Part shown: piece by piece, positions 36,357-53,904 of the stretch
Position numbering within the stretch: position 1 is the stretch's first letter
Layout of the letters: each line of letters begins with the position of its first letter
NCBI RefSeq assembly: GCF_025244705.1
Contig: NZ_CP104207.1
Coordinates: forward strand, 1,736,001-1,800,000
Direction: 5' to 3'
DNA length: 64,000 bases
DNA from: Sphingopyxis sp. PET50
GTDB lineage: Bacteria; Pseudomonadota; Alphaproteobacteria; Sphingomonadales; Sphingomonadaceae
Translations under genes and position numbers: made by a program
The notes under the pieces: model-generated
Databases searched by the model: none
What the model was told of the DNA's origin: nothing
What the model saw: only the letters and a program-made list of their open reading frames with translations

Positions 36357-37144
36357 TCGCTTTTCCTCTTGTCGAGAAACAGGGTCTGGTGGGCATGCCC
36401 CAGTTCGCCCCACTCGTCGGCGAGGAGCGAATGGACGACCGCGAGGCCATTGCCCGCGCTTCGGGTTTCGGCGGCGACCCGCACCCATTCGCCCTGCGGC
36501 ATGCGGGTCAGGTGCAGGCTGATATCGACATTGGCGAAGCTCCACGCGCGCCAGTCGACGAAACTCGACGTGCCGCTGCCGAAATCGGCCGCCATCGCGA
36601 GCTGGACGAAGGGCGAAATCGCGACGCCGGGCAGGATTTCGCCCGACAGGCGCGCCCAGACGACGCCCGGACCGGGCACTTCGAGCCCGCCCGATTCGAG
36701 CCGCGTCTCGCTGACATGCCCGAGCGGCGAGCGGTCGCCGTTGAGGCTCGGCAGGCCGGCGGGCGGCAGCATGTGCCGCACGGCTTCGGTGCCCGGCGAC
36801 TCCGACATCCGGATCCGCAGCGCCGAGGCGCGCGCCGTGGTCACGCCCTCCTGCACCAGCGCGACGTCGAGCAACTGCAGCCGCTTGCCCTCGCGTACCA
36901 CGGCGACGCGCGCCTCGACCGGCGCCATCGTCGTCGGCTTCATCATGTCGAGCAGCAACCGGCTCGTCACCATCGGCACCGGGCTCGGCGCCCGTTCGAT
37001 CACGTGCGCGATCAGCGCATTCAGCACCACCCCGCTTTGCAGGCGGCGATCCCACGGGCCGGTCGCAAGCCGCGTCGGCACATAGGCGCCATCGACGACG
37101 TCATAGATATGCCGCACCAGCGGCGGCGCGGCCCCGGCATTCAT
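36353..37144 (-). CDS. Thioesterase family protein (double-hotdog, TesB/ACOT-like)
   Basis: The 263-residue protein is a double-hotdog acyl-CoA thioesterase-like protein: GPWDRRLQSGVVLNALIAHVIER near the start, then AISPFVQLAMAADFGSG and SFANVDISLHLTRMPQGEW in the second repeat. Such proteins hydrolyse acyl-CoA to free acid and CoA. The start ATGAATGCC overlaps the upstream stop (TGATG). It lies between SDR and acyl-CoA dehydrogenase genes of one operon. Confidence 0.85.
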   Translation of the reverse strand: MNAGAAPPLVRHIYDVVDGAYVPTRLATGPWDRRLQSGVVLNALIAHVIERAPSPVPMVTSRLLLDMMKPTTMAPVEARVAVVREGKRLQLLDVALVQEGVTTARASALRIRMSESPGTEAVRHMLPPAGLPSLNGDRSPLGHVSETRLESGGLEVPGPGVVWARLSGEILPGVAISPFVQLAMAADFGSGTSSFVDWRAWSFANVDISLHLTRMPQGEWVRVAAETRSAGNGLAVVHSLLADEWGELGHAHQTLFLDKRKSE

Positions 37145-38100
37145 CAGCCCGCCTTCCGGGGCGCTGCCGACCATGCGAGATCGACGATGTCGGCCACATG
37201 CGTGCGGAAGCCGCCCATCTCGCCAACCAGCCAGCGCAGGCGAAAGGTCCACAGATGCAGCGCATGTTCCAGCGTCATGCCGAGCGCGCCGTTGAACTGG
37301 TGGACATCGTAATTGACCTGCGCGATCGCGCGCTGCGCGTGCAGCGCGGCGAGCGCCGCGTCGAGTCCGCTGCCGCTCCACGCCGCCTTCATCGCCAGCC
37401 AATAAGTACCGCGGCACTTCTCGGCGTCGGCGGCGAGGCGGTGCTGCACCGCCTGGAACGACCCGACCGGCCGGCCGAACACATGCCGCTGCTTGACATA
37501 TTCGGTGGTGAAATCGGTCGCCGCCTGCATCGCCGCCGCGATTTCGAGCGCCAGCGCGAGCCGCCATAGCCGCCGCAGCTCGCCGGCCTTGTCCGCACCC
37601 AGCCGCCGCGCCGCCGAGAGATCGGGTGCCTCGGCGAACTTGCCCAGCGGATAGGCATAGACGCCGTCCAGCGGCACGACCTCCCTCCCGGCCATATCGA
37701 CCACCGCGACATCGTCGCCCAGATCGACAATCAGCGTCCGCGCCTCGGCGAGGAAGCGCACGCCGCGCGGCAGGTCGGCGAGCCGGGCGATCGCGATCGG
37801 CCGCGGCAGCGCCTCGCCGATCAGCAGCGGCACGATCAGCACCGACGCGCCCGTCTCCAGCACCAGCGGCGACAGCCCCGCCTCGTAAACGAGGATCGCG
37901 GCCTCGACCGCACCGCATCCATCCGCCAGCGCGACTTCGAAGAAGCCGCCGCCCGCGAGCGCCGCTTCCAGTCCGGTCGCGGGGTGAAAGGCGCGCGGCT
38001 CGACCACATTGCCGGTGCGCGGCACCTCGCGATGATCGGCGACAATGCGCTGGATCGCCCCGGCGAGCGCGCGCTGGTCGGCGGAAAAATCAAAATCCAT
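37144..38100 (-). CDS. Acyl-CoA dehydrogenase, short subunit (pair 1)
   Basis: The 318-residue protein has an acyl-CoA dehydrogenase C-terminal fold (KQRHVFGRPVGSFQAVQHRLA) and GALGMTLEHALHLW, which holds the Glu at the usual catalytic position (G-x4-TxE). It is shorter than a standard ACAD and has a degenerate N-terminal half. Together with the next gene it resembles heteromeric ACAD pairs such as FadE28-FadE29 of steroid catabolism, which form alpha2beta2 complexes. It is separated by 3 bp from its partner. Confidence 0.9.
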   Translation of the reverse strand: MDFDFSADQRALAGAIQRIVADHREVPRTGNVVEPRAFHPATGLEAALAGGGFFEVALADGCGAVEAAILVYEAGLSPLVLETGASVLIVPLLIGEALPRPIAIARLADLPRGVRFLAEARTLIVDLGDDVAVVDMAGREVVPLDGVYAYPLGKFAEAPDLSAARRLGADKAGELRRLWRLALALEIAAAMQAATDFTTEYVKQRHVFGRPVGSFQAVQHRLAADAEKCRGTYWLAMKAAWSGSGLDAALAALHAQRAIAQVNYDVHQFNGALGMTLEHALHLWTFRLRWLVGEMGGFRTHVADIVDLAWSAAPRKAG

Positions 38101-38103
38101 CGC

Positions 38104-39249
38104 TCAATTTCCCCGCGGCAGCCCGAGATGGCGGCCCGAAATCATGTTGAGCTGCACCTCCGCTGCGCCCGCCGCGATGCCGGCGGTGATCGCCGAATTG
38201 AACTGCGCGCGCAGATGGCCGTCGGCGCCGTCGACGAGCAGGTCGGGCAGATAGGTCGAGGTCAGGTTCGCGACCGCATGATCGGCCTGGATCATCGCCC
38301 AGCGCGCGAGATAGGTTTCGGAGCCCGGCTCCTTGTCCTTCGCGCGGCCGTCGATGACCAGATAGGTCTGAAGCCGCGCCGCCTCGACCATCGCGAGCGC
38401 GGCGGCGCAATCGGCACGCACCACCGGATCGTCGAAATCGCCGCGCGCCTTCAGCAGCTCGACGATATGCGCAAGGGCGCGCGCCGCCTTTTCATAGCGC
38501 CCCGCCCCGATCCGCTCATAATGGATGATCGTCTGAACGATCGTCCAGCCATTGCCTTCCTCGCCGAGCAGCGCGTCGGCGGGGACGCGGGCGTCGGTGA
38601 AGAAAATCTCGTGGAAATCGTGGCGCGAATGGACGCCCGGGATCGGCCGTATCTCGATGCCCGGGGTGTCCATCGGCACCAGGAAACAGCTGACCCCGCC
38701 CTTGCCCTTGCCGCCGACGCGCGCGAGCAGGAACATGATGTCGGCGCGGGCGGCGTAGCTGGTCCAGATCTTTGAGCCGTTGACTACATAGTCGATGCCG
38801 TCGGGTTCGGCGCGGGTCTGCATATTGCCGAGGTCGGTGCCCGCCTCGGGCTCCGAAAAGCCCTGGCACCACAGCAGCTCGCCCGCCGCGATCGCCCGCA
38901 GATAGCGCTGCTTCTGCGTTTCGGTGCCGAATTTCATGATCGCGGGTCCGGCCCAGTTGGTGCCGAGATAGAGCGAGGATCGCGGCTCGCCGATCGACCA
39001 CATCTCTTCGCTGATGATGATCTGCTGCCACGCGCTGGCGTCGGCGCCGCCATAGGATTTCGGCCAGTGCCGCACGATCAGGTCGCGTTCGGCAAGCCGC
39101 GCGTTGAACAGCCGGGCATGATCCATCAGCTTCGGACTCGACGGCCCGTGCGGGGCATATTCGTCCCACCAATCGTCCGGAAGCGTCGCCAGCACCTCAT
39201 GAAGCTCGGCGCGATACGCCTCCTCCGAATCGCTCCAGGCGAACTCCAT
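38104..39249 (-). CDS. Acyl-CoA dehydrogenase, long subunit (pair 1)
   Basis: A 381-residue acyl-CoA dehydrogenase with WCQGFSEPEAGTDLGNMQTRA in the FAD/substrate region (about residues 124-144), VVNGSKIWTSYA and FLVPMDTPGIEIRPI. The C-terminus LNMISGRHLGLPRGN is typical of the long subunit of heteromeric pairs, which supplies most of the FAD site. It starts at 39249 behind GGAGAG and heads a seven-gene minus-strand operon (39249 to 33063). A GTATAC operator-like site lies 18 bp upstream. Confidence 0.92.
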   Translation of the reverse strand: MEFAWSDSEEAYRAELHEVLATLPDDWWDEYAPHGPSSPKLMDHARLFNARLAERDLIVRHWPKSYGGADASAWQQIIISEEMWSIGEPRSSLYLGTNWAGPAIMKFGTETQKQRYLRAIAAGELLWCQGFSEPEAGTDLGNMQTRAEPDGIDYVVNGSKIWTSYAARADIMFLLARVGGKGKGGVSCFLVPMDTPGIEIRPIPGVHSRHDFHEIFFTDARVPADALLGEEGNGWTIVQTIIHYERIGAGRYEKAARALAHIVELLKARGDFDDPVVRADCAAALAMVEAARLQTYLVIDGRAKDKEPGSETYLARWAMIQADHAVANLTSTYLPDLLVDGADGHLRAQFNSAITAGIAAGAAEVQLNMISGRHLGLPRGN

Positions 39250-39266
39250 CTTTGCTCTCCTCTCTT

Positions 39267-39283
39267 AATTGGTATACTTATTC
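39267..39283. promoter_or_regulatory. GTATAC-centred operator-like site
   Basis: AATTGGTATACTTATT lies between the divergent acyl-CoA dehydrogenase operon and the GntR gene. A GTATAC core also occurs at 41284-41296 and 49467-49482, always just upstream of catabolic genes. T-n-GT-n3-AC-n-A is the usual FadR/GntR operator shape. Confidence 0.5.
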
Positions 39284-39323
39284 GCGACATCGCTCGCTTG
39301 TCAAACGGGAGGAAATTCAACAC

Positions 39324-40520
39324 ATGTCGGAGGGCGAGAGGGGCTTCACCCTCCCGGGGGACAGATTGGCCATGGTGGGCGCGAGCAAGCGCAGGAGAAA
39401 ATTGGGAGAGATCGTCGCCGAGCGGATCATCGGCGAGATCATCCGGCGCGGCTGGAACGAGGGCGAGGTGCTGGGCACCGAGGCCGATTTCATGGACATG
39501 TTCCGCGTCTCGCGCGCGACCTTCCGCGAAGCCGTGCGGCAGCTCGAATGGCATGGCGCGGCGGGAATGCGCCGCGGCGTCTATGGCGGGCTCGTGGTCA
39601 AGGCGCCGCCGCGCCACGCGATCGTCTATGGCGCGAAAACCTATTTCGGCCTCGCCTCGGTCGACCGTGCCCTGCTCGACGAAGCCGCCGCGGTCCTTCG
39701 CGCCGCGCCGCGGCTGCGGCCGGGCCAGTCGGAGAACCAGGCGATCGGCCTCTTCCTCGAGGCGCTCGACACGCGGACGATCACCGATCTCGCCAACGAG
39801 CGCATGGTCGCGGGGTCGCTGCCCAAGCTCAGCGAGACGATCGCGCTGAAGCTGGTGCAGGATATCGAACAGGCCGGGGCGAAACGCGGCGCCAACCTCG
39901 GCAACGAAGGCGAACTCCAGCGGCGCTACGGCGTCAGCCGCGCGGTGCTGCGCGAGGCGCTGCGCCCGCTCGAGCTCCACGACATCGTCCGGGTCAAGAC
40001 CGGCGCGCAGGGCGGGGTCATCATCCGCGAATGCGACCCGACCTATACGATCGAACTGACATCGACATATCTCACCTATTCGCGCATCCCGCTGTCGCAT
40101 CTGTGGGAGGCGCAGAGCGCGCTGGAAATCGCCGCGGTCGAAAAATTCGTTCACCGGGCGAATGCGGAATCACTTCAGGCGCTGCGCAAGGCGCTGGCGC
40201 GGCTCGAGAATGCATCGGCGAGCCATTATCTTGCCGCGGCGGGCGAGTTTCACCAGATCGTCGCCGACCGCAGCGGCAATCCCGCCCTCGCCCTGTTCGT
40301 CGGGGTGGCACTGCGCTACGGCCTGATCGTCATGCCGCGACCCGACGAAAACTTCCTGCCCGAACTCAAGGCGCAGCACAGCCGCATGGTCGACGCCATC
40401 GCGGCGGGCGACCGCGACGCCGCGATGGAATCGATGCGCGCGATGTTCGATCATGCCCGCCGCTGGATCCGGCGGATCGAGCGCCGGCAGGACCAGATCG
40501 ACGCCGAATTTTCAGGCTGA
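39324..40520 (+). CDS. GntR family regulator with two winged-helix domains and an FCD domain
   Basis: The 398-residue protein has a first winged-helix domain (about residues 25-95, with GTEADFMDMFRVSRATFREAVRQLE), a second GntR winged helix (about 170-240, GNEGELQRRYGVSRAVLREALRPLE) and a C-terminal FCD-type ligand domain (about 255-395, with EFHQIVADRSGNPAL and HSRMVDAI). Normal FadR/GntR proteins have one HTH and about 240 residues. GGAGG lies 10 bases upstream of ATG 39324; an upstream in-frame ATG has no such site. It is divergent from the acyl-CoA dehydrogenase operon and is the likely regulator of the island. Confidence 0.9.
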   Translation: MSEGERGFTLPGDRLAMVGASKRRRKLGEIVAERIIGEIIRRGWNEGEVLGTEADFMDMFRVSRATFREAVRQLEWHGAAGMRRGVYGGLVVKAPPRHAIVYGAKTYFGLASVDRALLDEAAAVLRAAPRLRPGQSENQAIGLFLEALDTRTITDLANERMVAGSLPKLSETIALKLVQDIEQAGAKRGANLGNEGELQRRYGVSRAVLREALRPLELHDIVRVKTGAQGGVIIRECDPTYTIELTSTYLTYSRIPLSHLWEAQSALEIAAVEKFVHRANAESLQALRKALARLENASASHYLAAAGEFHQIVADRSGNPALALFVGVALRYGLIVMPRPDENFLPELKAQHSRMVDAIAAGDRDAAMESMRAMFDHARRWIRRIERRQDQIDAEFSG

Positions 40521-41204: not shown

Positions 41205-41283
41205 ATTTCTCTCCCTCACTCCCGATGTCGAATGGCGATGTCGAAATGGGGCTTGCCGCGAACCGCGGTTCGATGCAAGAGAT

Positions 41284-41296
41284 ATGGTATACCAGT
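41284..41296. promoter_or_regulatory. GTATAC-centred operator-like site
   Basis: ATGGTATACCAGTT contains the perfect palindrome TGGTATACCA. It lies immediately upstream of the AGGAGG site of the enoyl-CoA hydratase gene, where a bound repressor would block initiation. It shares its core with the sites at 39.27 and 49.47 kb. Confidence 0.55.
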
Positions 41297-41310
41297 TAGG
41301 AGGATTGAGG

Positions 41311-42114
41311 GTGCCAGCGCGTTACGCGAATTATTCGGCCATCAGGGTCGGGCAGGACGGTCTTGTCCTGACGATCACGCTCGACAACCCGCCGCTCAAC
41401 GGCATGACGCCCGAGGCGCATGAGGAACTGACGCGAATCTGGGCCGATGCTCGGCGCCGACCCCGGCGTGCGGGTGATCGTCTTCACCGGCGCGGGCGAG
41501 CGCGGTTTCTGCGCTGCAGCGGCGATCCGAAGAAGATGATCGACAATTGGGGCAACCGCGAACGCTGGCACGTCGGCATCTTCGAGGCGCGGGCGATCAT
41601 CGTCGCCATGCTCGAATGCCCGAAGCCCGTGATCGCGCGGATCAACGGCCATGCAATGGGCATGGGGGCGAGCCTCGCGCTCGCCGCCGACATCACCATC
41701 GCGGTCGAGGATGCGCTGATCGGCGATCCGCACGTCAGCGTCGGCCTGGCGGCGGGCGACGGCGGCGCGCTGTTGTGGCCCCAACTCGTCGGGCTCGTCG
41801 AGGCGCGCCGCCATTTGCTGAGCGGCGATCCGCTGCGCGGCAAGGAAGCGGCGGCCAAGGGGCTGGTCACCGACGCGGTGACGCGCGAGGAACTCGACGG
41901 CGCGGTGAAGAAATGGGTCGATATCTTCCTGTCCAAGTCGCCGAGCGCGCTCCAGACGACCAAGCAGGCGCTCAACCTCGACATCCTCGACAAGGCGCGC
42001 CGCCACATGGGCGAGATGCTGCGGCTCGAAACCCGGTCGTGGGAATCGCCCAATCACCGCGAAGCGGTGCAGGCGATGATCGACAAGCGCCCGCCCGATT
42101 TCGTCGACGAATAA
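41311..42114 (+). CDS. Enoyl-CoA hydratase family protein with a compensated frameshift
   Basis: A crotonase-fold protein of 267 residues. It starts at GTG 41311, behind AGGAGG at spacing 7; the in-frame ATG at 41284 lies in the operator-like site. The stretch from 41452 to about 41518 reads nonsense (DARRRPRRAGDRLHRRGRAR), but the +1 frame there gives ADPGVRVIVFTGAGERGFCA, the expected crotonase sequence. A one-base insertion at 41452 and a one-base loss near 41515 therefore cancel each other. Downstream INGHAMGMGASLALAADITIA and GDGGALLWPQLVG are intact. It heads an operon running to 48635. Confidence 0.88.
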   Translation: MPARYANYSAIRVGQDGLVLTITLDNPPLNGMTPEAHEELTRIWADARRRPRRAGDRLHRRGRARFLRCSGDPKKMIDNWGNRERWHVGIFEARAIIVAMLECPKPVIARINGHAMGMGASLALAADITIAVEDALIGDPHVSVGLAAGDGGALLWPQLVGLVEARRHLLSGDPLRGKEAAAKGLVTDAVTREELDGAVKKWVDIFLSKSPSALQTTKQALNLDILDKARRHMGEMLRLETRSWESPNHREAVQAMIDKRPPDFVDE

Positions 42115-42132
42115 GCGGGGCCGCCACGCATC

Positions 42133-43207
42133 ATGTCCGATGATATCGACCTCGGCGTTCTCGCCGAAAGCTTCGCCGAAATGCTCGGCGCCGAATGGCC
42201 GCGCGAACGGGCGGTCGCCTTTTCGCGCGCGCCCGCCCCGTTCGCCGGCGCCTTGTGGAACCAGATGGCGGCGCTCGGCTGGACCGCGCTGACGGTGCCC
42301 GAAAGCCACGGCGGCCTCGGCCTCGGCACCGAAGCCGCCGCCGCGCTCCATGCCGCGCTCGGAGCGGCCGCAGCGCCGGTGCCGATGCTCGGAACGACGC
42401 TCGCGACCACGCTGCTTGTGGCGGCTGGCAGCGAAGCGCAGCAGGCCGATCTCCTGCCGGGGCTCGCCGACGGTTCGCTCCGCGCCGCGGTGGCGCAGCT
42501 CGGCCGACGGAGCCGTGACCATCGAGGACGGCTGCGCGAGCGGGACGATCGCGACCATGATCGACGCCCCGTCGGCGACCATGCTGTTCCTGCGCGCCCA
42601 CAGGGACGGACAGTCCTGCTGGATCGCGGTCCCGACCGATGCCGAGGGCGTATCCGTCGCCCCGGCCGCGCTCAGCGACGCGACGCATACGCTGGCCACG
42701 GTCACGCTCGACCGCGTCGGCATCGGCGACGACGCCCTGATCCGGCCCGCCGATCCCTCGGCGCTCGACGACCGGCTGCTGCGCGAGGCGGCGGTGGCGA
42801 TCGCGGCCGACGCGATCGGCGGCGGCGAAGCGGCACTTGCCGGAACCATCGACTATATGAAGGTCCGCGAACAGTTCGGCCGCGTCATCGGCTCCTTCCA
42901 GGCGCTCAAGCACCGCGTCGCCGACCATCAGGCGGCGCTGGTCGCGGGCCGCGGCCTGATCGAACATGCGGGCAGCCTTTCGGCCGATCACCCCGACGCG
43001 CTGCTCGCGGCGCTATCGGCCAAACAGCATGTGACGCGCGTCGTCGCGGAAATCGCGCGCGACTGCATCCAGCTGCATGGCGGGGTCGGCTTCACCGCCG
43101 AATTCTTCCCGCACATCTATCTGAAGCGCGGCAAGCTCAACGAGGCGCTGTGGGGCACGCGCAACCGGCTGCTCGACCGCATCGCCGACCTGCTGGAGGC
43201 CGCATGA
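42133..43207 (+). pseudogene. Acyl-CoA dehydrogenase, short subunit (pair 2), frameshifted
   Basis: The N-terminal frame (to about 42500) and the +1 frame after it join into 357 residues if the C at 42501 is removed (GCAGCTCGGCC to GCAGCTGGCC). The product then has VPESHGGLGLGTEAAAALHAALG, a central beta domain, REQFGRVIGSFQALKHRVADHQA and the catalytic region HGGVGFTAEFFPHIYLKR, with Glu in place. It is the shorter member of an ACAD pair, overlapping its partner by 4 bp. As written the second half is lost after VAQL. Confidence 0.8.
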
Positions 43208-44409
43208 TGGGCCGGACGTTCGACATCCTGTCCAAGGTCGGCGACGAGCCCGCCTTTCGCCAGGAAATCCGCGACTGGCTCGCCGCGACCGTTCCCGCCG
43301 ACTGGCGCACGCGCTGGCAGGCGGTGCGCGAATCCGAACTGAAGGCAATCGTCGTCGAATGGCTCGAGGAACGGCGCAAGGTCGGCCTCGCGACCCCGCA
43401 CTGGCCGCGCGAATGGGGCGGCCCGGGCATTCCCTTCGCCTATCAGATCATCGTCTATGAAGAATTCGCCCGCGCCGACGCGCCCGAGCTCGACATGTTC
43501 ACCATCTCGCTGTTCCACACCCCCGCGACCCTGTTCGAGCACGGCACGCAGGAACAGAAGGACCGCTATATCGGCGGCGTCGCCCACGGCACCGACATCT
43601 GGTGCCAGGGTTTTTCGGAACCCGGCGCCGGCTCCGACCTCGCCTCGCTGCGCACCGCGGCGCGGCGCGAGGGCGATCATTATGTCGTCAACGGCCAGAA
43701 GATCTGGTCCTCGGCGGCGATGCACGCCGATTACTGCCTGCTGCTCGCGCGCACCGATCCCAATGGGCCGCGCAAGCATGACGGCATCTCCTATTTCATC
43801 ATGGACATGAAGACGCCCGGCGTCGAGGTCCGCCCGATCCTGCAGATCACCGGCGAGTCCGAATTCGCCGAAATCTTCCTCGACGACGTCAGGATTCCGG
43901 CCGAAAATCTGATCGGCGCCGAAGGCAACGGCTGGAACATCGCCCAGTCGACGCTGTCGACCGAACGTGGCCTGCTGATCTTCGGCGCGGTCGAGCGGCT
44001 GGCCCGCTCGTTCGAACTCGACGCGAAGGAAGCGAAGGATAGCTGGATGCGGGACGTCCAGCTGCGCCGCGAATATGCCGCCTTTCACGCCGAGCTCCAG
44101 TCGCTGCGCCTGATGATCCGCAAGCTGCTGATCGAACTCGAGGCCAATCCGGACAAGGCGTCGCCGACGCTGCCGACCTATATCAAGCTGGTCTGGGGTC
44201 CGTTCCTGCAACGCTACACCGAATTCCTGCTGCGCGCCGAAGGCATCGAGGCGCTGAAATGGCAGCCGTCGATTCCCGGGACCGGGCACAGCAGCCGCCT
44301 GCGCATGAACGATTTCCTGAAAAGCTATGGCTGGACGATCGCGGGCGGATCGAACGAGGTCATGCGCAACATCGTTTCGGAAAGAATCCTCGGCCTGCCG
44401 CGGGGCTGA
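43204..44409 (+). CDS. Acyl-CoA dehydrogenase, long subunit (pair 2)
   Basis: A 401-residue acyl-CoA dehydrogenase with WCQGFSEPGAGSDLASLRTAA, VVNGQKIWSSAAMHADYCLLLART and FIMDMKTPGVEVRPI, ending in AGGSNEVMRNIVSERILGLPRG. The last segment is the FAD-binding C-terminal motif of the long subunit type. Two adjacent ATG codons (43204 and 43207) are possible; the overlap with the previous stop is 4 bp. It pairs with 42133-43207. Confidence 0.93.
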   Translation: MMGRTFDILSKVGDEPAFRQEIRDWLAATVPADWRTRWQAVRESELKAIVVEWLEERRKVGLATPHWPREWGGPGIPFAYQIIVYEEFARADAPELDMFTISLFHTPATLFEHGTQEQKDRYIGGVAHGTDIWCQGFSEPGAGSDLASLRTAARREGDHYVVNGQKIWSSAAMHADYCLLLARTDPNGPRKHDGISYFIMDMKTPGVEVRPILQITGESEFAEIFLDDVRIPAENLIGAEGNGWNIAQSTLSTERGLLIFGAVERLARSFELDAKEAKDSWMRDVQLRREYAAFHAELQSLRLMIRKLLIELEANPDKASPTLPTYIKLVWGPFLQRYTEFLLRAEGIEALKWQPSIPGTGHSSRLRMNDFLKSYGWTIAGGSNEVMRNIVSERILGLPRG

Positions 44410-44449
44410 CCGCGGCGAACGACAAGGTCGAATGACGGGAGAGAGTGAC

Positions 44450-45874
44450 GTGACCGAAGCATCGCCCGCGCCGCCGGGTCCGACGATCTTCTATCGTCTC
44501 GTCATCCCGCTGATGATCGCCGAGATCGTCGCCGCGCTCGAACTGACGATGATCTATGCGGCGATGCGCAGCCTGGTCGCCGATTTCGGCGGCACATCGG
44601 CGGCGGGCTGGCTCGTCACCTCCTTCATGCTCTCTTCGGCGGCGGGCGCGGCGCTGTTCGGGCGCCTCGGCGACCTGATGGGACGGCGGCGCATCCTGCT
44701 GTGGGTGCTCGCGCTGTCGACGACCGGATCGCTGATCAGCAGCCTCACCGGCGACCTCGGCTGGCTCATCACCGGGCGCGCGATGCAGGGACTGGCGGGG
44801 GCGATCATCCCGCTCTGTTTCGGCCTGATCCGCGAACGGGTCGCGGCAGAGCGCGTCCCGCTCGGCATCAGCCTCATCTCCTCTTCGGCCAGCATCGCGG
44901 CGGCCTCGGGGCTCGTGATCGGCGGGCTCATCATCGACTATTCGGACTGGTCGATGATCTTCAAGGTTTCGGCGGCGATGGGCGCGATCGCTTTCCTCGT
45001 TGTGACCTTCTGCGTCGCCGCGGATGAAAGGTCGGACCTTGGCGGGGTGCGCGACGATCTGCTCGGCGGCCTGCTGTTCATTCCGGCGGCGCTCGGCCTG
45101 CTGCTCGCGATCGACAACGCGGGACATGCCGGCTTCACCGACCGGATGACGCTCGTCTATGGCGTCATCTCGGCGGTATCCCTCGTCGCCTGGATCGGCC
45201 GCGAACGCAGCGTCGCCAATCCGCTCATCAACGTGCGCCTGCTGGGGGAACCTCGGATCGCCTGGGCCAATATCCTGATGGTGACCATCGCGCTCGGCGT
45301 GTTCCAGGGCGGGCAGATCATGGCGCTGTTCGGGCAGCAATCGCCCGAAACGGGCGTCGGGCTGGGATTGAGCGCCACGCTCGCCGGCTTCCTGCTGCTG
45401 CCCGCCAATATCCTGACCGGCCTCATCTATCCGCTCGTCGCCCGCGCCAACCAGCACTTCGGCCCGCGTCCCGTCGCAACGACCGGCTGCCTGATGGTCG
45501 TCGCCGCCTTCCTCGCGCTCATCGTCTGGCACGACGACATCGTCACCGTGATGCTGCTGCTCGTTGTCCAGTCGATCGGGCTCGGCATCGTCTATGTCAC
45601 CGTGCCGATCGTCATTGTCGGCGCCGCGCCGATGGACCGGGTCAGCGAGGTCACCGGCATGATGGGCGTCATCCGCGCGACCGCGATGGCGATCGGCGCG
45701 CAGACCGTCGCCACCCTGTTGTCGACCGGCGGCGGCCATCACGGCTCTCCCACCGGCGCCTTCCCGTCCGAAGCCGCCTATGAGGGCGTCTTCCTGTTCG
45801 TCGCCGCAACCGCGCTGATCGGCGCGCTCGTGGCGCAGAAGCTGCCGGGGCGCCTGACCGGGCGGCCCGGCTGA
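44450..45874 (+). CDS. MFS transporter, DHA2-like
   Basis: The protein has about 14 predicted membrane helices in roughly 475 residues, with motif A between helices 2 and 3 (GRLGDLMGRRRILLW) and RAMQGLAGAIIPLCFGLIRE, as in the 14-helix DHA2 drug/H+ antiporter group. It may export a toxic intermediate or take up the substrate of the island. GTG 44450 has GGGAGAG at suitable spacing, the ribosome-site style used by nearby genes; ATG 44432 would add six residues. It lies 40 bp after the acyl-CoA dehydrogenase gene. Confidence 0.88.
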   Translation: MTEASPAPPGPTIFYRLVIPLMIAEIVAALELTMIYAAMRSLVADFGGTSAAGWLVTSFMLSSAAGAALFGRLGDLMGRRRILLWVLALSTTGSLISSLTGDLGWLITGRAMQGLAGAIIPLCFGLIRERVAAERVPLGISLISSSASIAAASGLVIGGLIIDYSDWSMIFKVSAAMGAIAFLVVTFCVAADERSDLGGVRDDLLGGLLFIPAALGLLLAIDNAGHAGFTDRMTLVYGVISAVSLVAWIGRERSVANPLINVRLLGEPRIAWANILMVTIALGVFQGGQIMALFGQQSPETGVGLGLSATLAGFLLLPANILTGLIYPLVARANQHFGPRPVATTGCLMVVAAFLALIVWHDDIVTVMLLLVVQSIGLGIVYVTVPIVIVGAAPMDRVSEVTGMMGVIRATAMAIGAQTVATLLSTGGGHHGSPTGAFPSEAAYEGVFLFVAATALIGALVAQKLPGRLTGRPG

Positions 45875-45896: not shown

Positions 45897-47054
45897 ATGG
45901 ACGGCCCGCTCGCTCCGCTCTTCTCGCCCTTCGCGCTTCGCTCGCTCAGCCTTGCGAACCGTATCGTCATGGCGCCGATGACGCGCGGTTTCTCGCCGCA
46001 AGGCGTCCCCGGGGCCGATGTCGCGGCCTATTATGCGCGCCGCGCCGACACCGGGCTGATCATCACCGAAGGGGTCGGCGTCGATCATCCGGCGGCGCTC
46101 GGCGGCAGCGGTGTCGATGGCGACAATGCGCCGCATATGTACGGCAAGGCGGCGCTCGAAGGCTGGCGCGGCGTGGTCGATGCGGTGCACGCGGCGGGCG
46201 GGGTGATCATGCCGCAGCTCTGGCATCAGGGCGTGATGCGCGAGATGGGCACCGGCCCCCATCCCGACGTCGAATCGGTGCGTCCGTCGGGCATCTGGGG
46301 TCCGCTGGACCGGACCGCGATGGTGTCGCCCGCCTATAGGGAGGCGGTGGCGGCAAAGCCCGGCCGGCCGATGACCGACAGCGAGGTCGGCGACGTGATC
46401 GAAGGGTTTGCGCGCAGCGCGCGCTGGGCGATGGAAACCGGCTTCGACGGCATCGCGATCCACGGCGCGCACGGCTATATGGTCGACAATTTCCTGTGGG
46501 ACGGCACCAACCGGCGCACCGACCGCTGGGGCGGCGATCACCGGGGACGCACCGCCTTCGCCGCCGAACTGGTGCGCGCGGTGCGCCGCGCGATCGGCCC
46601 CGAACCGGTGATCAACTTCCGCTTCTCGCAATGGAAGCAACAGGACGTCCGCGCGCGGCTCGCCGACACGCCGGGGCAGCTCGAAGAGGTGCTGGGGCCG
46701 ATTGCGGATGCCGGGGTCGATATCTTCGACGGCAGCCAGCGCTATTTCGACCGGCCCGAATATGAAGGATCACCGCTCAACCTCGCCGGCTGGGCGAAGA
46801 AGCTGACCGGCAAGGCATCGCAGACGGTCGGCGGCGTCGGTCTGTCGTCGGGCGTCTATGATTCGAAAAGGACCGGCGGATCGGATGCGGCGCGCGAGAA
46901 TGTCGAACGGGCGGCCGCGCGGCTCGACCGCGGCGAGTTCGATCTTGTCGGGGTCGGCCGTGCGCTCCTGCACGACCCGCAATGGACGCGCCGCATCCGC
47001 GAGGGCGCAGATTTGCTGCCCTTCGACGAAAATTCGCGGTTCGTCCTGACCTGA
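45897..47054 (+). CDS. NADH:flavin oxidoreductase, old yellow enzyme family
   Basis: A 385-residue FMN TIM barrel: NRIVMAPMTRGF at the N-terminus, GVIMPQLWHQG, FDGIAIHGAHGYMVDNFLW with the substrate-binding His pair (HGAHG), and RTDRWGG followed by RVVGVGRA-like LVGVGRALLHDPQW at the phosphate end. Members reduce activated C=C bonds such as enones. It lies between the MFS and SDR genes of one operon and is intact, unlike its paralog at 49516. Confidence 0.93.
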   Translation: MDGPLAPLFSPFALRSLSLANRIVMAPMTRGFSPQGVPGADVAAYYARRADTGLIITEGVGVDHPAALGGSGVDGDNAPHMYGKAALEGWRGVVDAVHAAGGVIMPQLWHQGVMREMGTGPHPDVESVRPSGIWGPLDRTAMVSPAYREAVAAKPGRPMTDSEVGDVIEGFARSARWAMETGFDGIAIHGAHGYMVDNFLWDGTNRRTDRWGGDHRGRTAFAAELVRAVRRAIGPEPVINFRFSQWKQQDVRARLADTPGQLEEVLGPIADAGVDIFDGSQRYFDRPEYEGSPLNLAGWAKKLTGKASQTVGGVGLSSGVYDSKRTGGSDAARENVERAAARLDRGEFDLVGVGRALLHDPQWTRRIREGADLLPFDENSRFVLT

Positions 47055-47079
47055 CGGTCCTATCGGGAAGGGAGAGATT

Positions 47080-47871
47080 ATGGCAGGGCCATTGGAGGGC
47101 CGCACCGCGATCGTCACCGGCGCCGGACGCGGCATCGGGCGCGGCATCGCGGTCGAGCTGGCGCGCGAGGGCGCGCAGGTCGTCGTCGCCTCGCGCTCGC
47201 AGGGCAGCATCGACGAGACGCTGGCCGAGATCGCCGCCGACGGCGGCATCGGGGTCGGGCAGGTCTGCGACGTCGGCGACCGCGACCATATCGAAAGGGC
47301 GGTCGCGGGCGCGGTGGACCGCTTCGGCGGCCTCGAAATCCTGGTCAACAACGCGCAGAGCTTCGGCACCGCCGAACAGCCCGCGCCGACCCCCGTCATC
47401 ACCCCGCTCGAGGATTTCAACGACGGCGAATGGGACCGCACCTTCGCCACGGGCCCGACCGCGACCTATCATTTCATGAAGGCCGCCTTTCCCCATCTCA
47501 AGGCGTCGGGTGCCGGACGCATCATCAACTTCGGCTCCTATTGGGGACAAGTCGGTTATGAAGGCTCGGCGGCCTACAATGCCGCCAAGGAAGCGATCCG
47601 CGGCCTGACCCGCACCGCCGCGCGCGAATGGGGCCGATACGGCATCACCGCGAACGTCATCAATCCGGCGATCGCCTCGGATGCGCTCAAGAGCTTCGTC
47701 GCCAACCAGCCCGAGCAGGCGCAGAGAGCGGTCGAGACGATCCCGATGCGCCGCTACGGCGACATCTATGCCGACGGCGGACGCCTCGCGGTGTTCCTCG
47801 CAAGCGACGACGCCGGTTTCCTGACCGGCATGACCTTCCAGGCCGACGGCGGCCTGTTCATGGCACCATGA
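47080..47871 (+). CDS. SDR family oxidoreductase
   Basis: A 263-residue SDR with GAGRGIGRG (about residues 13-21), NNAQSF in the NNAG position, Ser in NFGSYWGQVG and YNAAKEA (Y-x3-K). GGGAGAG precedes the ATG. The following gene's ATG overlaps its stop by 4 bp. Confidence 0.92.
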   Translation: MAGPLEGRTAIVTGAGRGIGRGIAVELAREGAQVVVASRSQGSIDETLAEIAADGGIGVGQVCDVGDRDHIERAVAGAVDRFGGLEILVNNAQSFGTAEQPAPTPVITPLEDFNDGEWDRTFATGPTATYHFMKAAFPHLKASGAGRIINFGSYWGQVGYEGSAAYNAAKEAIRGLTRTAAREWGRYGITANVINPAIASDALKSFVANQPEQAQRAVETIPMRRYGDIYADGGRLAVFLASDDAGFLTGMTFQADGGLFMAP

Positions 47872-48635
47872 CGGCCGGTACCTTCTCGGGCCAGGTGGCA
47901 CTCGTCACCGGCGGCGCCTCCGGGATCGGCGAAGCGATCGTCCGGCGTCTCGCCGCCGACGGCGCGCGCGTCCTGTTCACCGACATCGACGAAGCGGCGG
48001 GCGAGCGGGTCGCTGGCGCGGCGCCCGAGACGACCCGCTTCCTGCACGCCGATGCGACCAGCGAGGCGGATGCCGAACGCAGCGTCGCCACCGCCCTCGC
48101 CGTCCTCGGCCGGCTCGACATCGCGGTCAACAATGTCGGCAATTTCGGCGCCGGCGACACGGCCGGCGCGGGACTCGAGGACACAGCGGTCGAAGCGTGG
48201 GACAACACGCTGCGCCAATGCCTGACGAGTTGCATGCTCGGCATGAAATATGCGCTGCCGCCGATGCTCGCGGCGGGATCGGGCAGCATCGTCAACATCG
48301 CCTCGCTCGCGGGCATCCGTGTGACGCGCTACGCCTCCTATGCCTATCACGCCGCCAAGGCGGGCGTGGTGCACCTCAGCGAGGCCGCGGCGGTGCTCTA
48401 TGCGACACGCGGCATCCGCGTGAACGTCGTCGCGCCGGGGCTGACGCTGACGCCCAATGTCGCGGGCGCCATGCCCGAAGAGCTACGGGCATCGCTGGTC
48501 CGCGAATTCCATCCGTCGCAGCGCATGGTCGCGCCCGAGGAAATCGCCGACGCTGTCGCCTGGGCGGCGGCCCCCGGCGGCGCCGGGGCAACGGGCCTCG
48601 TCATCCCCGTCGATGGCGGCTGGTCGGCGCGATAG
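47868..48635 (+). CDS. SDR family oxidoreductase
   Basis: A 255-residue SDR with GGASGIGEA, NNVGNF in the NNAG position, Ser in VNIASLAG and YHAAKAG (Y-x3-K). It ends VIPVDGGWSAR, the typical SDR C-terminus. It is the last gene of the operon that starts at 41311, followed by an intergenic repeat. Confidence 0.92.
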   Translation: MTAGTFSGQVALVTGGASGIGEAIVRRLAADGARVLFTDIDEAAGERVAGAAPETTRFLHADATSEADAERSVATALAVLGRLDIAVNNVGNFGAGDTAGAGLEDTAVEAWDNTLRQCLTSCMLGMKYALPPMLAAGSGSIVNIASLAGIRVTRYASYAYHAAKAGVVHLSEAAAVLYATRGIRVNVVAPGLTLTPNVAGAMPEELRASLVREFHPSQRMVAPEEIADAVAWAAAPGGAGATGLVIPVDGGWSAR

Positions 48636-48666
48636 GGTTTTTCTGTGCGGGGTTCCGACACGAAAA

Positions 48667-48776: not shown

Positions 48777-48871
48777 GATTATGCTAACTAGAGCGGCGTG
48801 CGTTTAATCTGCAACGCCCCTTGCCCGTTCGTGTCGAGCTCTTCGACTGCCTTGCAAGGGCTTGGGATCGG

Positions 48872-49441
48872 TCAAGGCAGGCTCGTCACCCTGCCCCGCG
48901 CGTCGGCGTGCTGCGCCCAATAATCGCCCCAGCTTTCGTCCGATTGCGGCAGTTCGCAGGTAAAGCGATCCTCGCGCCCCGGCCATGTGTTGAAATCGAG
49001 CGACCGCGGCGCCTCGCGCGGGTCGCCGACGAACAGGAAGCGCGGTCGGCGGCCGAGGAAATGCCAGCCCCCCTCCACCCGCACATAACGGTCGAAATAG
49101 ACCATCAGATTGACGATCCAATGGTCGCCATCCTCATGCTCCGCCCGGCAATAGACGGTACCGCGCGCGCTGTCGGGCTCGATGTCGGTGATCACATGGC
49201 CGACGATCTGGTGAAAGCTGCGATAGAAGCCCGCAAGCACCGGACCATAGAAAGCGCGCGCACCCTCCGCCCCGGCGCCATGATCGCCGAAGCGCGTCTG
49301 CGGCGCGAACAATTCGCCCAGGTCGGCAAGGTTGCGGCTGTCGACGGCGCGCGCATAACGCGACGCAAGTTGCTGGATGGCCAGCTGCGCCTCGACCTTT
49401 TCCAGCCGCCGCACCCATTGTTCCGTTGTCCCGTCCACCAC
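48872..49441 (-). CDS. SnoaL-like / nuclear transport factor 2-like protein
   Basis: The 189-residue protein has the NTF2-like cone fold of SnoaL_4 proteins: LAIQQLASRYARAVDSRNLADLGELFA at the start, then GHVITDIEPDSARGTVYC and WHFLGRRPRFLFVGD. Members are small isomerases, hydratases or unknown auxiliary proteins of degradation clusters. It is divergent from the old-yellow-enzyme gene, with a GTATAC site between them. Confidence 0.85.
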   Translation of the reverse strand: MVDGTTEQWVRRLEKVEAQLAIQQLASRYARAVDSRNLADLGELFAPQTRFGDHGAGAEGARAFYGPVLAGFYRSFHQIVGHVITDIEPDSARGTVYCRAEHEDGDHWIVNLMVYFDRYVRVEGGWHFLGRRPRFLFVGDPREAPRSLDFNTWPGREDRFTCELPQSDESWGDYWAQHADARGRVTSLP

Positions 49442-49466
49442 CGACTCCCTCTTGCCACCAGATTAT

Positions 49467-49482
49467 ATCAGTATACTATTTA
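49467..49482. promoter_or_regulatory. GTATAC-centred operator-like site
   Basis: ATCAGTATACTATTTA lies between the divergent SnoaL-like gene (start 49441) and the old-yellow-enzyme gene (start 49516). It is the third GTATAC-cored site upstream of island genes. Confidence 0.45.
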
Positions 49483-49515
49483 AACGAGGTAAGACGAACA
49501 AGGGGAGAGTCCGAT

Positions 49516-50829
49516 ATGCTGCAGACCGCGACCATCCGCACCGCCGACGACGCCGGGCCGCGCGGAAACCGGGGGCGCGAAAGCCGGCGGCCCGGCGAAC
49601 GGCAGCGCCGCGCGGCCGCTGGACGTGTCCCCGCTGTTCACGCCGCTCCAGATCGGCCGCCTGACGCTGGGCAACCGTTTCGTGATGGCGCCGATGGGGC
49701 GCGGCTCGGCAAGCGATGGCGTGCTGTCGCCCGCCTATGCCCCCTATTATGCGCGCCGCGCCGCGGGCGGCGCCGGGCTGGTGATCGGCGAGGCGACCGC
49801 GATCGACCATCCGACCGCGATGCACATGCGGACGAGTTCGACCATATACGGCCAGGGTGCGGAGGCCTGGGCAAAGGTCGCCGACGCGGTGCATGCCGCG
49901 GGCGGCGCCTTCATGCCGCAGATCTGGCACGCCGCGCTGATGCGCTCGCCCTATCCGGCCGAAGACCCGAAGCTCGAGATGGTCAACCGCCATCTCAAAT
50001 CCATGGGGCCGTCGGGACTTTATATGCCGGGCCTGATCGATCCGTCGCTGACCCCGCCCGATCCGGTGCAGGTCGAGGAGCCGATGACGGCCGCCGAGAT
50101 CGACGAATGCATCGCCTCCTATGCTCGCGCCGCCGCGACCGCGATGGCGATCGGCTGTGACGGCGTGAACATCCACGGCGCGCACGGCTATCTGATCGAC
50201 GAATTCCTGTGGTCGCGCTTCAACCGCCGCACCGACAAATATGGGGGGAGCATCGCCAACCGGGTGCGCTTCGCGGTCGAGGTCGTCGCCGCGTGCCGCG
50301 CCGCGACCGCCCCCGACTTTCCGATCATGCTGCGCCTGTCGCAATGGAAGCAGCAGGATTATCGCGCCCGCATCGCCGAGTCCGCGGGCGAACTCGCCGA
50401 TATCGTGGTGCCGCTGGCGGAGGCGGGCGCCGACCTGTTCGATTGTTCGACCCGCCGCTTCTGGGAGCCCGAATTCGCGGGATCGGACCTCAGCCTGTCG
50501 GGCTGGATGAAGCAGCTGACGGGCAAGCCGACGATGATGGTCGGATCGCTGGGCATCGCCAGGGAGGTGCTCGAAAAGGACGCGATGGCCGCGCTGCGCG
50601 CCGTCGCCGCGGGCGGCAAGGCGGCCGCGCTCGGCCGAAGTCGCGACGATCGACGGCCCGCCGCACATGCTCGAAGAGGCGCTGCGGCGTTTCAACCGCG
50701 GCGATTTCGACCTGCTGGGCGTGGGCCGGATGATGATCGCCAACCCCGATTTCGCGAACCGCGTCCGCACCGGCGACTATCGCCGGCATGCAGGTCTATC
50801 GCACCGAGCATCTGATGACGCTCGAATGA
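49516..50829 (+). pseudogene. Old yellow enzyme family oxidoreductase, three frameshifts
   Basis: ATG 49516 has GGGGAGAG upstream, but its frame must shift near 49600 to reach SPLFTPLQIGRLTLGNRFVMAPMGRG. Two more shifts occur at 50632 (GCGCTCGGCC) and near 50784 (TATCGCCGGC). Removing one base at each gives 436 codons ending VYRTEHLMTLE at 50829. The core has HGAHGYLIDEFLWSRFNRRTDKYGGS with the His pair and ends LLGVGRMMIANPDF. It is a paralog of 45897-47054, so it probably reduces a related enone. As written it is broken at both ends. Confidence 0.75.
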
Positions 50830-50896
50830 TCCGGCGCCTCTAGCCCTCACTCACCGGCGGCGCGAAAGGCGCGGTGACGGGCGCGAAACGCGCCGG

Positions 50897-51658
50897 CTAG
50901 CCCTCGCGCTTCGCCGCCAGCGCCTCGGCGAAATCGGGGCCGTGCAGCGTCTCGCGCGTCAGCGCCGCCGCCTTCGCCCGCGCCGCCTCGAACGTCTCGC
51001 CGTCCGCATCGCGGAGCTGGCGCTTGATCAGCGCGAAACTCGACGGCGCGCCCTCCGCCAGTTCGGCGGCATAGCCAAGGGCGGCATCGCGAAAGCCTTC
51101 GCGCGGCAACAGGCGCGAAACAAGGCCCTTGGCAAAGGCTTCCTCGGCGGCGACGCGCCGCGCCGACATCAGCATTTCGGCGGCATGGCCGGGACCCACC
51201 AGCCGCGACAGCGACCAGGCGAGCCCGCCCTCGGCGCACAGCCCCAGATTCGCGAAGGGCGCGACGAACACCGCATCGTCGGCGGCGATCCGGATGTCGG
51301 CGGCGCAGGCGAGCGCGAGGCCGATCCCGGCGCACGCCCCGTGGATGGCCGCGATCACCGGCTTGGGGAGCAGCATCAGCCCGTCGTAGCGCAGCCCGCC
51401 CGACCCCGAATTGGGGGCGGACGGATCGTCGGACAATTCTCCGAGCACCTGCATGTCGGCCCCGGCGCAAAAGGCGCGGCCCGCGCCCGCCAGCAGGACG
51501 ACCCGCACCTCGGGATCGGCCCCCGCCCGCGTGAACGCCGCGGTCAGCCCGCGCGACAGGCCGCCGTTCGACGCATTGAGCCGTTCGGGGCGGTTGAGCG
51601 TGATCCGCGCAACGCCGCCTTCGACCGCATAGAGGACGACATCCCGCTCCTGCCCCAT
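50897..51658 (-). CDS. Enoyl-CoA hydratase/isomerase family protein
   Basis: A crotonase-fold protein of 253 residues with GRAFCAGADMQVLG (about residues 59-72), HGACAGIGLALACAADIRIA and CAEGGLAWSLSRLVG. It ends EALAAKREG at a TAG (50897-50899). The frame beyond the TAG remains open to a second TAG at 50842, reading PARFAPVTAPFAPPVSEG, which resembles the usual xRPxRF tail of the family, so the first stop may be secondary. The ATG directly follows the stop of the acyl-CoA dehydrogenase gene. Confidence 0.88.
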   Translation of the reverse strand: MGQERDVVLYAVEGGVARITLNRPERLNASNGGLSRGLTAAFTRAGADPEVRVVLLAGAGRAFCAGADMQVLGELSDDPSAPNSGSGGLRYDGLMLLPKPVIAAIHGACAGIGLALACAADIRIAADDAVFVAPFANLGLCAEGGLAWSLSRLVGPGHAAEMLMSARRVAAEEAFAKGLVSRLLPREGFRDAALGYAAELAEGAPSSFALIKRQLRDADGETFEAARAKAAALTRETLHGPDFAEALAAKREG

Positions 51659-52736
51659 CTACCAGCCCGCAAAATCGGCCGCGCGCAGCCGGTGACGGCT
51701 CGGCGACCCCATCCATGTCCAGTCGAGCATCGCCCGCTTCATATAGATATGCGTGTCATGCTCCCAGGTGAAGCCGATGCCGCCGTGCGCCTCGACCGTG
51801 TCGCGCGTGACCTGAAGATAGGTGTCGGTCAGATGCGCCTTGGCCTGCGCCGCGGCATGCGCGGCCTTGTCGGGCAGCTTGTCCCAGGCATGCGCCGCAT
51901 ACCAGTACAGCCCGCGCGCCGGTTCGGTCGCCAGCGCCATTTCGACGAGCTGGTATCGCAGGCCCTGAAAGCCCGCGATCGGCTGGCCATATTGTTCGCG
52001 CACGCGGGCGTAATCGACCGACATCGTGACGCAATGCTCGGCCCCGCCAAAGGCATCGGCGGCGAGCAACACCGCCGCGGCATCGACCAGCCGGTCGCGC
52101 GCCGGCAGCCCGCCGGCGAGCAGTTCGGCCGCCGCGCCGTCGAACGTCACGGTATCGACCGGACGCGTGCGGTCGCCGCTGTCGATCCGCCGCGCCGTAT
52201 AGGCCGCGCCCTTCTCGACCAGCGCCAGCCCTTCGGCGACGCCGACGACGATCAGGTCGGCCTCGGCGGCATTGGGCACCAGCGTCTTGGTGCCGCTGAT
52301 CCCGCCCGCCGCCGTCAGCCGCCAGTCGTCGGGGAACCAGACGCCCTGCCCTTCGCCGAACGCCACCGTCGCCAATATCTCGCCGCTCGCCAGCCTAGGC
52401 AGCCAGGCGGCCTTTTGCGTGTCGCTGCTTAGCCAGCGTGATCGCAACGATCGCCAGCGTATGCCCCAGCCAGGGGACCGGCGCCGCATAAGCGCCGAGC
52501 CGTTCGGCGACGATCGCCAGATCGACCATGTCGAGGCCAAGCCCGCCATAAGCCTCGGGCACGAAGATCGCGGGCAGGCCGAGTTCGACCAGCCCCGCCC
52601 ACAGATCGGCGTCGAACTGCGCGTCGCCCTCGACGTCGAAGATCCTGTGGACGCGCTGCGGGTCGCAGCGGTCGCGCAGCAGATCCCCGGTCGCCGACAG
52701 AAAGGCGAGTTGGTCGTCCGAAAGCAGGAAGTTCAT
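51659..52736 (-). pseudogene. Acyl-CoA dehydrogenase, short subunit (pair 3), frameshifted
   Basis: It starts MNFLLSDDQLAFLSATGDLL and has VPEAYGGLGLDMVDLAIVAERLGAYA in the first frame. From about 52430 the +1 frame carries QKAAWLPRLASGEI, VREQYGQPIAGFQGLRYQLVEMALATE and the catalytic HGGIGFTWEHDTHIYMKRA. One removed base (GCTAAGC to GCTAGC) gives 358 residues. It overlaps its partner by 4 bp and abuts the enoyl-CoA hydratase gene. The Glu of GFTWEHD is present. Confidence 0.8.
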
Positions 52737-53904
52737 GCGCCCGCTCCCTGCGCCTTGTCGCGCGGCAGGCCGAGGCTGCGCTCGGCGATGATGTTGCGCT
52801 GGATGTTCGACGTGCCGCCGGCGATCGACATCGACAGCGAGATCATGAAGCGTTCGATCCATTTGAGCCGCGCCCCGCCCATGTCGGTGAAATCATCCTC
52901 GATGATGTCGCGCGCGAGCTTGGAAATCCGTCCCGCAAGCTCGGTCATGTACAGCTTCGGCATCGTCTGGAACGGACCGATGTCGCGGCCGTGCATGTCG
53001 TGCGACGTCGCGCGATAGGTCGAGTAAGTGAGCGACATCAGCTGCCCCTCGATCGCGGCGAGTTCCTCGCGGATGCGCGGGTCCCTGATCGCTCGGCCGC
53101 CCGTCGCGCTCGACCTCCTTCGCCATCTTCACCAGGTCGCGGAACATCGACAGGCTCCAGGTCATCGACGAGATACCCGACCGTTCGTGCTTCAGCGTCG
53201 AGCGCGTGACGGTCCACCCCTGTCCGCGCTCGCCGACCAGCATGTCCGTCGGCGTCTCGGCGTTGTCGAAGAAGACCTCGTTGAATTCCTTCTGCCGCGT
53301 CATCTGGACCAGCGGGCGCACGGTCACCCCCGGCTGGCGGATATCGACCAGCAGATAGGAGATGCCGGCATGTTTCGGTGCCTCGGGCTCGGTCCGCACC
53401 AGGCAGAACATGTGCGTCGCCTTGTGCGCATGGGTGGTCCAGATCTTCTGGCCGTTGATGATCCATTTGTCGCCGACCAGCTCGCCCCTGGTGCGCAGCG
53501 AGGCGAGGTCGGACCCGGCGTTGGGTTCCGAAAAACCCTGCGCCCAGACGATGTCGCCGCGCAGCGTCGGCGCGATAAAGCGCGCCTTCTGCTCCTCGGT
53601 GCCCCATTCGAGCAGGGTCGGGACGACCAGGCCGTTGCCGGGAATGCGCCCGGCCGGCGCCCGCGCCCTGGTCAGCTCCTCGCGGATGATCTCCGCCTTG
53701 CCGATGTCGGGTGCCTGTTCGCTGCCGCCGAAACGTTTGGGAATCGAGCGATGGAGATAGCCGCGCTCGGTCGCCGCGATCACGAACGCCCGCTCATTCT
53801 CGCGCGACTTCGCATCGCCGTCGGCGGGCGGCCAATGTCGAGCCGATGAAATCGCGCACCTCCTGACGAAAGGCGTCATATTCCGCCCCGAAGCCCAGTT
53901 CCAT
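52733..53904 (-). pseudogene. Acyl-CoA dehydrogenase, long subunit (pair 3), two frameshifts
   Basis: ATG 53904 begins MELGFGAEYDAFRQEVRDFIGSTLAA. A +1 shift near 53827 leads into the main frame, with WAQGFSEPNAGSDLASLRTRG, INGQKIWTTHAHKATHMFCLVRT and LVDIRQPGVTVRPL. A second shift at 53094 (ATCGCTCGGCC on the plus strand) leads to the C-terminus IAGGTSNIQRNIIAERSLGLPRD. Two removed bases give 389 residues. It pairs with 51659-52736. A 9-bp GGATTGAGG acts as ribosome site. Confidence 0.8.

Follow-up and report, generated by a model that had tools for sequence, protein, structure and literature searches.

In a 64,000-nucleotide (nt) stretch of the Sphingopyxis sp. PET50 genome (contig NZ_CP104207.1, positions 1,736,001 to 1,800,000; hereafter the window), we found three pairs of acyl-CoA dehydrogenase (ACAD) genes in which the catalytic glutamate and a flavin-binding motif are divided between two neighbouring subunits. 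The best explanation of these data, which we hold with moderate confidence, is that the pairs form three α2β2 ACADs in an island that oxidizes a bulky, probably polycyclic compound; we infer its substrate, the order of its steps and its regulation.

Pair 1 (37144–39249, minus strand) has the order long–short: the stop codon of the long gene (38104–39249; 381 amino acids (aa)) is followed after 3 nt by the ATG of the short gene (37144–38100; 318 aa). Both frames are open, and both products were assigned from domain matches of their orthologues (Pfam and NCBIfam for the long subunit, PF00441 for the short one) and from structure models. Pair 2 (42133–44409, plus strand) has the order short–long (42133–43207, then 43204–44409; the long subunit, of 401 aa, was assigned by Pfam on its orthologue and by residue alignment), and pair 3 (51659–53904, minus strand) the order long–short (52733–53904, then 51659–52736); the genes of both overlap at ATGA. 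A sequence-only reading of the window had placed three side-by-side pairs at about these coordinates, with longer subunits ending in GLPR(G/D), and both points were borne out, the long subunits ending in LGLPR(G/D). Its list of six ACAD genes holds in part: three frames are broken in the window, those of the pair 2 short gene (around 42498–42506), the pair 3 short gene (around 52413–52426) and the pair 3 long gene (split over three frames), but all six genes are intact in a congener (G001), where their products all match ACAD Pfam domains. Because many genes of the PET50 genome (G000; one contig, 3.80 Mb, completeness 87%) are split by frameshifts, we chose G001 (one contig, completeness 100) as the main working genome and analysed mostly its intact orthologues. 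Its island is collinear with the window in inverted order, and the genes called there are open.

Division of catalytic and flavin residues between paired subunits

Passages of PMC10925408 and PMC8399759 describe a division of labour in heteromeric ACADs, in which the α subunit provides the flavin ring, the glutamate and the substrate site and the β subunit the ADP-ribose part. In the alignment column of the ChsE4 catalytic residue (Glu247 of 4x28_A, in LNHER), the long subunits of the window carry glutamate within IIHYER (pair 1), LSTER and LKHER, and 118 of the 125 long-type open reading frames (ORFs) collected also have glutamate there. The sequence-only reading had put the catalytic glutamate in a GxxxTxE segment of the short subunits, and we found the roles reversed. 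GxxxTxE is rejected here as the catalytic site. Its counterpart in alignments with ordinary ACADs is a T-x-D/E stretch that precedes YEGT; in the YEGT glutamate column, the short subunits of pairs 1–3 have Met, Trp and Met, and none of 103 short-type ORFs has glutamate (one has aspartate). The RxxFG...Q flavin motif, searched as R..[FY]G...FQ, was present in 85 of the 103 short-type ORFs. In the G001 orthologues of each pair, one subunit has the glutamate without RxxFG...Q and its partner the reverse, a pattern that matches the described α/β division and, as read from single-chain sequences, fits an FAD site split between the subunits. Two counts weigh against so clean a division: the motif also occurs in 4 of the 125 long-type ORFs, and its pattern is missing from 18 of the 103 short-type ones.

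The likeness to ChsE4–ChsE5 (FadE26–FadE27; 4x28) extends beyond the glutamate. Two adjacent, co-directional genes, one long and catalytic and the other encoding the short FAD half, make up all three pairs, and such an arrangement was present at all 45 loci sampled for pair 1; in the G001 orthologues of pairs 1–3, glutamate at the E247 position occurs in a single subunit. All three long subunits, together with 98 of the 125 long-type ORFs, have proline at the position of ChsE4 Pro91, a residue of LCAD and ChsE4 that is described in part of PMC10925408 as widening the substrate cavity. The alignments exclude L039 and L065, whose translations contain a stop, and the eight 'canonical' ACAD rows of the residue alignment were selected by a crude rule, only one of them (L003) being reused, as a control.

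Structure models were made of the single chains of the pair 1 subunits. For the short subunit (mean pLDDT 93.1), the small chains of 6wy8, 4x28 and 6wy9 led the VIA-align ranking (Z scores of 30.5, 30.0 and 29.7), with ordinary ACADs following from 28.2. The long subunit (pLDDT 78.7) was closest to Tcur3483 chains, followed by Fic32–Fic33 (8hk0), a Geobacillus ACAD (2pg0) and ChsE4. Modelling of all three heterotetramers had been proposed in the earlier reading; the models made here, of the two pair 1 chains, match steroid ACAD chains best or among the best. In sequence searches, a Tcur or ChsE4 chain came first for five subunits. The Tcur3481–Tcur3483 complex (6wy8/6wy9) is the top or near-top solved relative by sequence for all but the pair 3 short subunit, as well as the top fold for pair 1. 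Against the reading of pair 3 as an enzyme of this kind, four ordinary ACADs (4l1f and three others) scored above Tcur3481, in fifth place, for its short subunit.

The heteromeric plan first proposed from the sequence stands on the complementary subunits and on the match of the pair 1 models to the corresponding chains of 6wy8/6wy9 and 4x28. We consider it reasonably probable that each pair follows the α2β2 plan of ChsE4–ChsE5 and would constitute one ACAD of that oligomeric state. The long subunit would form the acyl-CoA pocket, hold the flavin ring and supply the catalytic glutamate; the short subunit would have lost that glutamate and would complete the FAD site.

Lineages and distribution of the pairs

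In a 48-row tree, in which several deep forks were weak and which was built without Scd4AB, ScdC1C2, IpdE1 and FadE28/29 sequences, the three long subunits fell into three separate clades, and 4x28_A and 6wy8_B formed a clade of their own. In the phylogeny, which the earlier reading had suggested, the six proteins were not all placed with homotetrameric ACADs. The long subunits stand apart from the two solved steroid ACADs. They differ from ChsE4 and Tcur3483 also at a flavin position, where all three have alanine in place of the glycine (Gly363 of Tcur3483), as in the G363A variant of Tcur3483. We presume that this glycine matters from the titles of a paper and of the G363A entry, and the known sphingomonad steroid ACADs lay outside the comparison. 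A recent local triplication was rejected, the long subunits being 29–37% identical and in separate clades. Stepwise shortening of a side chain or ring, as first proposed, would fit three lineages so divergent.

The best NCBIfam model of all three long subunits was the large subunit of the pimeloyl-CoA dehydrogenase PimC–PimD (173, 248 and 235 bits for pairs 1–3), and for the short subunit of pair 2 the best was the small-subunit model (135 bits; 36–135 bits among the short subunits), but these scores are far under the cut-offs of TIGR03204 and TIGR03203 (624 and 653 bits). Against the IpdE2 model (NF050027), whose cut-off is 450 bits, the short subunits of pairs 1–3 reached 57, 125 and 133 bits. 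Judged by sequence, the pairs appear to belong to a known kind, the heteromeric ACADs, in lineages without an identifiable characterized member, and the three enzymes would represent old, separate lineages. The Fic32–Fic33 complex of Streptomyces ficellus, which the model of the pair 1 long subunit resembles closely, is a heteromeric ACAD that we take to be biosynthetic and not a steroid enzyme; the architecture is therefore not specific to steroids.

Fused ACADs of the CasC or FadE34 type have a short-like half followed by a long-like half in one chain, whereas the window's relatives have separate genes. The pair 2 subunits are not naturally fused: the 758-aa ORF spanning 42133–44409 is a frameshift artefact, with a frame change inside the short gene, and the two genes are separate in G001 and in a Novosphingobium metagenome-assembled genome (MAG). 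A 734-aa ACAD with two halves, short-like and then long-like, adjoins pair-1-type genes in another locus (L058, 5801–8002).

The three pairs are real, but pairs are common in the PET50 genome. It has 44 PF00441 matches (46 in G001 and 19–29 in five other congeners searched), and their coordinates, read by eye, give 11 same-strand neighbouring ACAD pairs. Four of these lie in a second region at 943–979 kb (L023–L025), whose counterpart in G001 (1968–2022 kb; L130–L132) also contains acyl-CoA ligases, a thiolase and a wax-ester-synthase-like gene.

A match to the pair 1 short subunit at E ≤ 1e-25 was found in 17 of 298 family genomes searched, PET50 included. We analysed the first 45 (L050–L094) of at least 80 relatives of this subunit; the loci were chosen as its relatives and share ancestry, so they are not independent events. 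Judging by the record titles, their hosts are alphaproteobacteria of several groups and some gammaproteobacteria. In all 45, the short gene is directly preceded by a pair-1-type long gene, and 31 also have, within the roughly 20 kb of the locus, a pair-2-type long gene (17) or its sister type (14); the assignment of L059 to the pair-2 type, by a margin of 3, was not counted. In two loci (L053 and L055), from Niveispirillum and a Parvularculaceae MAG, pair 1 is nested, at about 7.5–12 kb of the locus, in pair 2 in the order 2L-1L-1S-2S.

Island genes and their probable regulation

Among the genes around the pairs, several were assigned through their G001 orthologues: four short-chain dehydrogenase/reductase (SDR) genes (33063–36356, minus strand), an acyl-CoA thioesterase-like gene (4HBT_3; 36353–37174, minus), crotonase (ECH) genes upstream of pair 2 (41311–42114, plus) and downstream of pair 3 (50897–51658, minus), an MFS transporter gene (44432–45874, plus), an old yellow enzyme (OYE) family gene (45897–47054, plus) and a SnoaL_4-like gene (48872–49441, minus). 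Scans of the window's own genes added, all on the plus strand, two SDR genes with no counterpart in the G001 island (47080–48635), a second OYE family gene (49625–50815), two cytochrome P450 genes (54373–55551 and 56689–57939), a beta-lactamase-fold, EstA-like esterase gene (55536–56689; also identified by plasmid comparison) and a GMC oxidoreductase gene (58124–59705), the last two being frameshifted here. A rubredoxin-like stretch (57955–58116, plus) matches an Azospirillum plasmid rubredoxin at 63%. On the minus strand lie genes for a free-standing lipoyl-domain protein (61773–61991) and the β (62015–63025) and α (63022–63999, running over the window end) subunits of a thiamine pyrophosphate (TPP)-dependent E1 enzyme. 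DUF4286, PhyH, AraC and nitronate-monooxygenase (NMO)-like families were also matched by G001 orthologues and window genes in Pfam. An ecdysteroid-kinase-like phosphotransferase gene (59777–60745) stands beside the GMC gene, and annotated phosphotransferases also occur near ACADs on two plasmids (L144 and L145).

Just past the window (1801171–1804037 of the PET50 contig) are a Rieske oxygenase gene and a KstD-like gene. The latter, 2.5 kb beyond the window and with one in-frame stop, would encode a 3-ketosteroid-Δ1-dehydrogenase by its similarity (48%) to a protein of Azospirillum scoring above the NCBIfam cut-off for that enzyme.

Parts of this gene set recur elsewhere. The Novosphingobium MAG (L052) has counterparts, at 53–88%, of the left part of the island, eighteen genes that begin with the crotonase downstream of pair 3 and extend to the NMO-like one. 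N. taihuense (L051) retains pair 1, the thioesterase, two SDRs, NMO and GntR, and Caulobacter OR37 (L050) pair 1 and NMO. The Azospirillum plasmid pAB510b has counterparts, at 47–75%, of the OYE, SnoaL, KstD, lipoyl, E1α/β, Rieske, rubredoxin, EstA, P450 and GMC genes; its KstD scores 915 bits against the NCBIfam cut-off of 789, which that of N. resinovorum (L077; 556 bits) fails to reach. Both P450s, EstA, GMC, SnoaL and one ACAD pair are present on a Paraburkholderia plasmid. Among the 45 loci, E1 genes at 60–67% occur in 8 and KstD-like genes in 4. The plasmid searches returned homologues and no named substrate, and we found no description of this cluster or its substrate in the literature listings searched. 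These comparisons point to an uncharacterized catabolic island common to several genera.

A GntR-family regulator gene (39324–40520, plus strand) lies next to pair 1. Its G001 orthologue, assigned by Pfam and NCBIfam, has an FCD domain and, ahead of it and apparently in tandem, two GntR helix-turn-helix stretches. Between this gene and pair 1 is a putative operator, TGGTATACTT (39270–39279), with the same site in G001, L052 and L051 (AATAAGTATACCA before pair 1 in N. taihuense). A second putative operator, TGGTATACCA (41285–41294), lies upstream of the crotonase–pair 2 operon, with the same site in G001 and L052. Their common core, GTATAC, has four copies in the window (39272, 41287, 49471 and, outside the island, 23370), where 1.0 copy is expected and 2 of 100 shuffles reach four. 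Both in the island locus of G001 (L020) and in L052, the sole two copies fall in the GntR/pair 1 and DUF4286/pair 2 operon regions, counts reached by 12 of 200 and 1 of 100 shuffles, respectively. The copy at 49471–49476, which separates the SnoaL gene from that of the second OYE, is a third possible operator, with no counterpart seen in L020. Because pairs 1 and 2 have this site in common, they are probably co-regulated, and the GntR protein would probably control both.

Pair-1 loci do not in general carry GTATAC, and the distribution of this site counts against a wider role: it lies upstream of the long gene in just 2 of the 45 loci, L051 and L052, which are also the two with a GntR match and GntR orthologues. 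A sequence resembling the Sphingopyxis operator, AACAGTATACCAATTA, occurs in Caulobacter OR37 (L050, 17275), away from pair 1. A single operator for all three pairs was rejected as well, since the region between pair 3 and the P450 gene lacks GTATAC, and pair 3 would not be under the same site. By-eye comparison of that region (53906–54372) revealed an element, TAATCAGATAACTAAGT, conserved in PET50 and G001, which suggests different control of pair 3.

Substrate of the island

On the reading that we favour, the island of about 40 kb would oxidize a steroid- or terpenoid-like compound that is bulky and probably polycyclic. The P450s, the GMC oxidoreductase and the esterase would functionalize the compound, and the OYE, SnoaL, SDR and KstD-like enzymes would adjust ketones and double bonds. 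The acyl-CoA would be supplied by a ligase encoded outside the island or by the TPP-E1 and lipoyl proteins, and the three ACADs would then act in different rounds of β-oxidation, together with crotonases and SDRs. Two observations stand against this reading: no acyl-CoA ligase was present among the island genes scanned (G001 orthologues and window genes, by Pfam), and pair 3 is not reached in L052, which ends before it.

Heteromeric ACADs are often taken as markers of steroid catabolism, and a true steroid island, for a sterol, bile acid or androgen, in which the pairs carry out β-oxidation of C5, C3 and ring-derived chains, is the foremost alternative. The nearest solved relatives are steroid ACADs, the KstD-like gene lies close by, and SnoaL, OYE and SDR genes presumably occur in bile-acid pathways too. 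The distribution of KshA, the marker of 9,10-seco ring cleavage, can be read both ways, the counts being from chosen genomes and not a random sample: KshA exceeded the cut-off in 7 of 16 pair-1-positive and 2 of 16 pair-1-negative family genomes, and two relatives that share parts of the island have it (four matches in the L052 genome, two in that of L051), but KshA_C (PF19298) had no match in PET50 (87% complete) or G001, KshA was found in 1 of 11 Sphingopyxis genomes searched (G289), and, of the 32 genomes in which pair 1 relatives lie, 20 lacked it above the cut-off (12 had it, one marginally). According to part of PMC8399759, Sphingobium Chol11 encodes five KshA homologues, and MaoC/OB-fold genes belong to the usual set for C3 side chains; we found no such gene among 30 congener island genes scanned. 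The tomato isolate Sphingobium RC1 degrades steroid saponins (PMC10653915), and 'acyl-CoA dehydrogenase' does not appear in that text. With alanine at the Gly363 position of all three long subunits and their placement in clades apart from 4x28_A and 6wy8_B, we consider a steroid island possible but rather unlikely, and another polycyclic or terpenoid substrate at least as likely as a steroid.

A more specific proposal is that pair 1 and the pair-2 type or its sister constitute a widespread, undescribed tandem module which, with the KstD-like, Rieske and TPP-E1/lipoyl proteins, would open a polycyclic ketone by an oxidative C–C cleavage that yields a CoA thioester directly, with no need of KshA or the 9,10-seco route; we regard this as doubtful. 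Still less probable are PimC–PimD-like enzymes for dicarboxylic or small alicyclic acyl-CoAs: they have the best NCBIfam models on their side, but the scores fall far short of the cut-offs, and the P450, GMC, OYE and KstD-like neighbours are unsuited to linear diacids. A decaying island with real frameshifts and three non-working pairs is very improbable, because the 6 split genes among 24 compared orthologues of the G001 island region that speak for it are matched by 15 of 66 in other ACAD regions, in a one-contig genome of 87% completeness. A pseudogene island was rejected on this similar share of split genes, which, with all six ACAD genes open in G001, makes the ACAD frameshifts probably assembly noise.

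The reading of three α2β2 ACADs for a bulky compound bears on the use of such enzymes as markers. Three divergent lineages together in one island, with no KshA detected in the genome, suggest that the heteromeric architecture may have a more general role in the oxidation of bulky substrates. The two-pair module, the regulator, its operator and the gene set in common with the Azospirillum and Paraburkholderia plasmids offer a handle on the substrate of an uncharacterized proteobacterial pathway.

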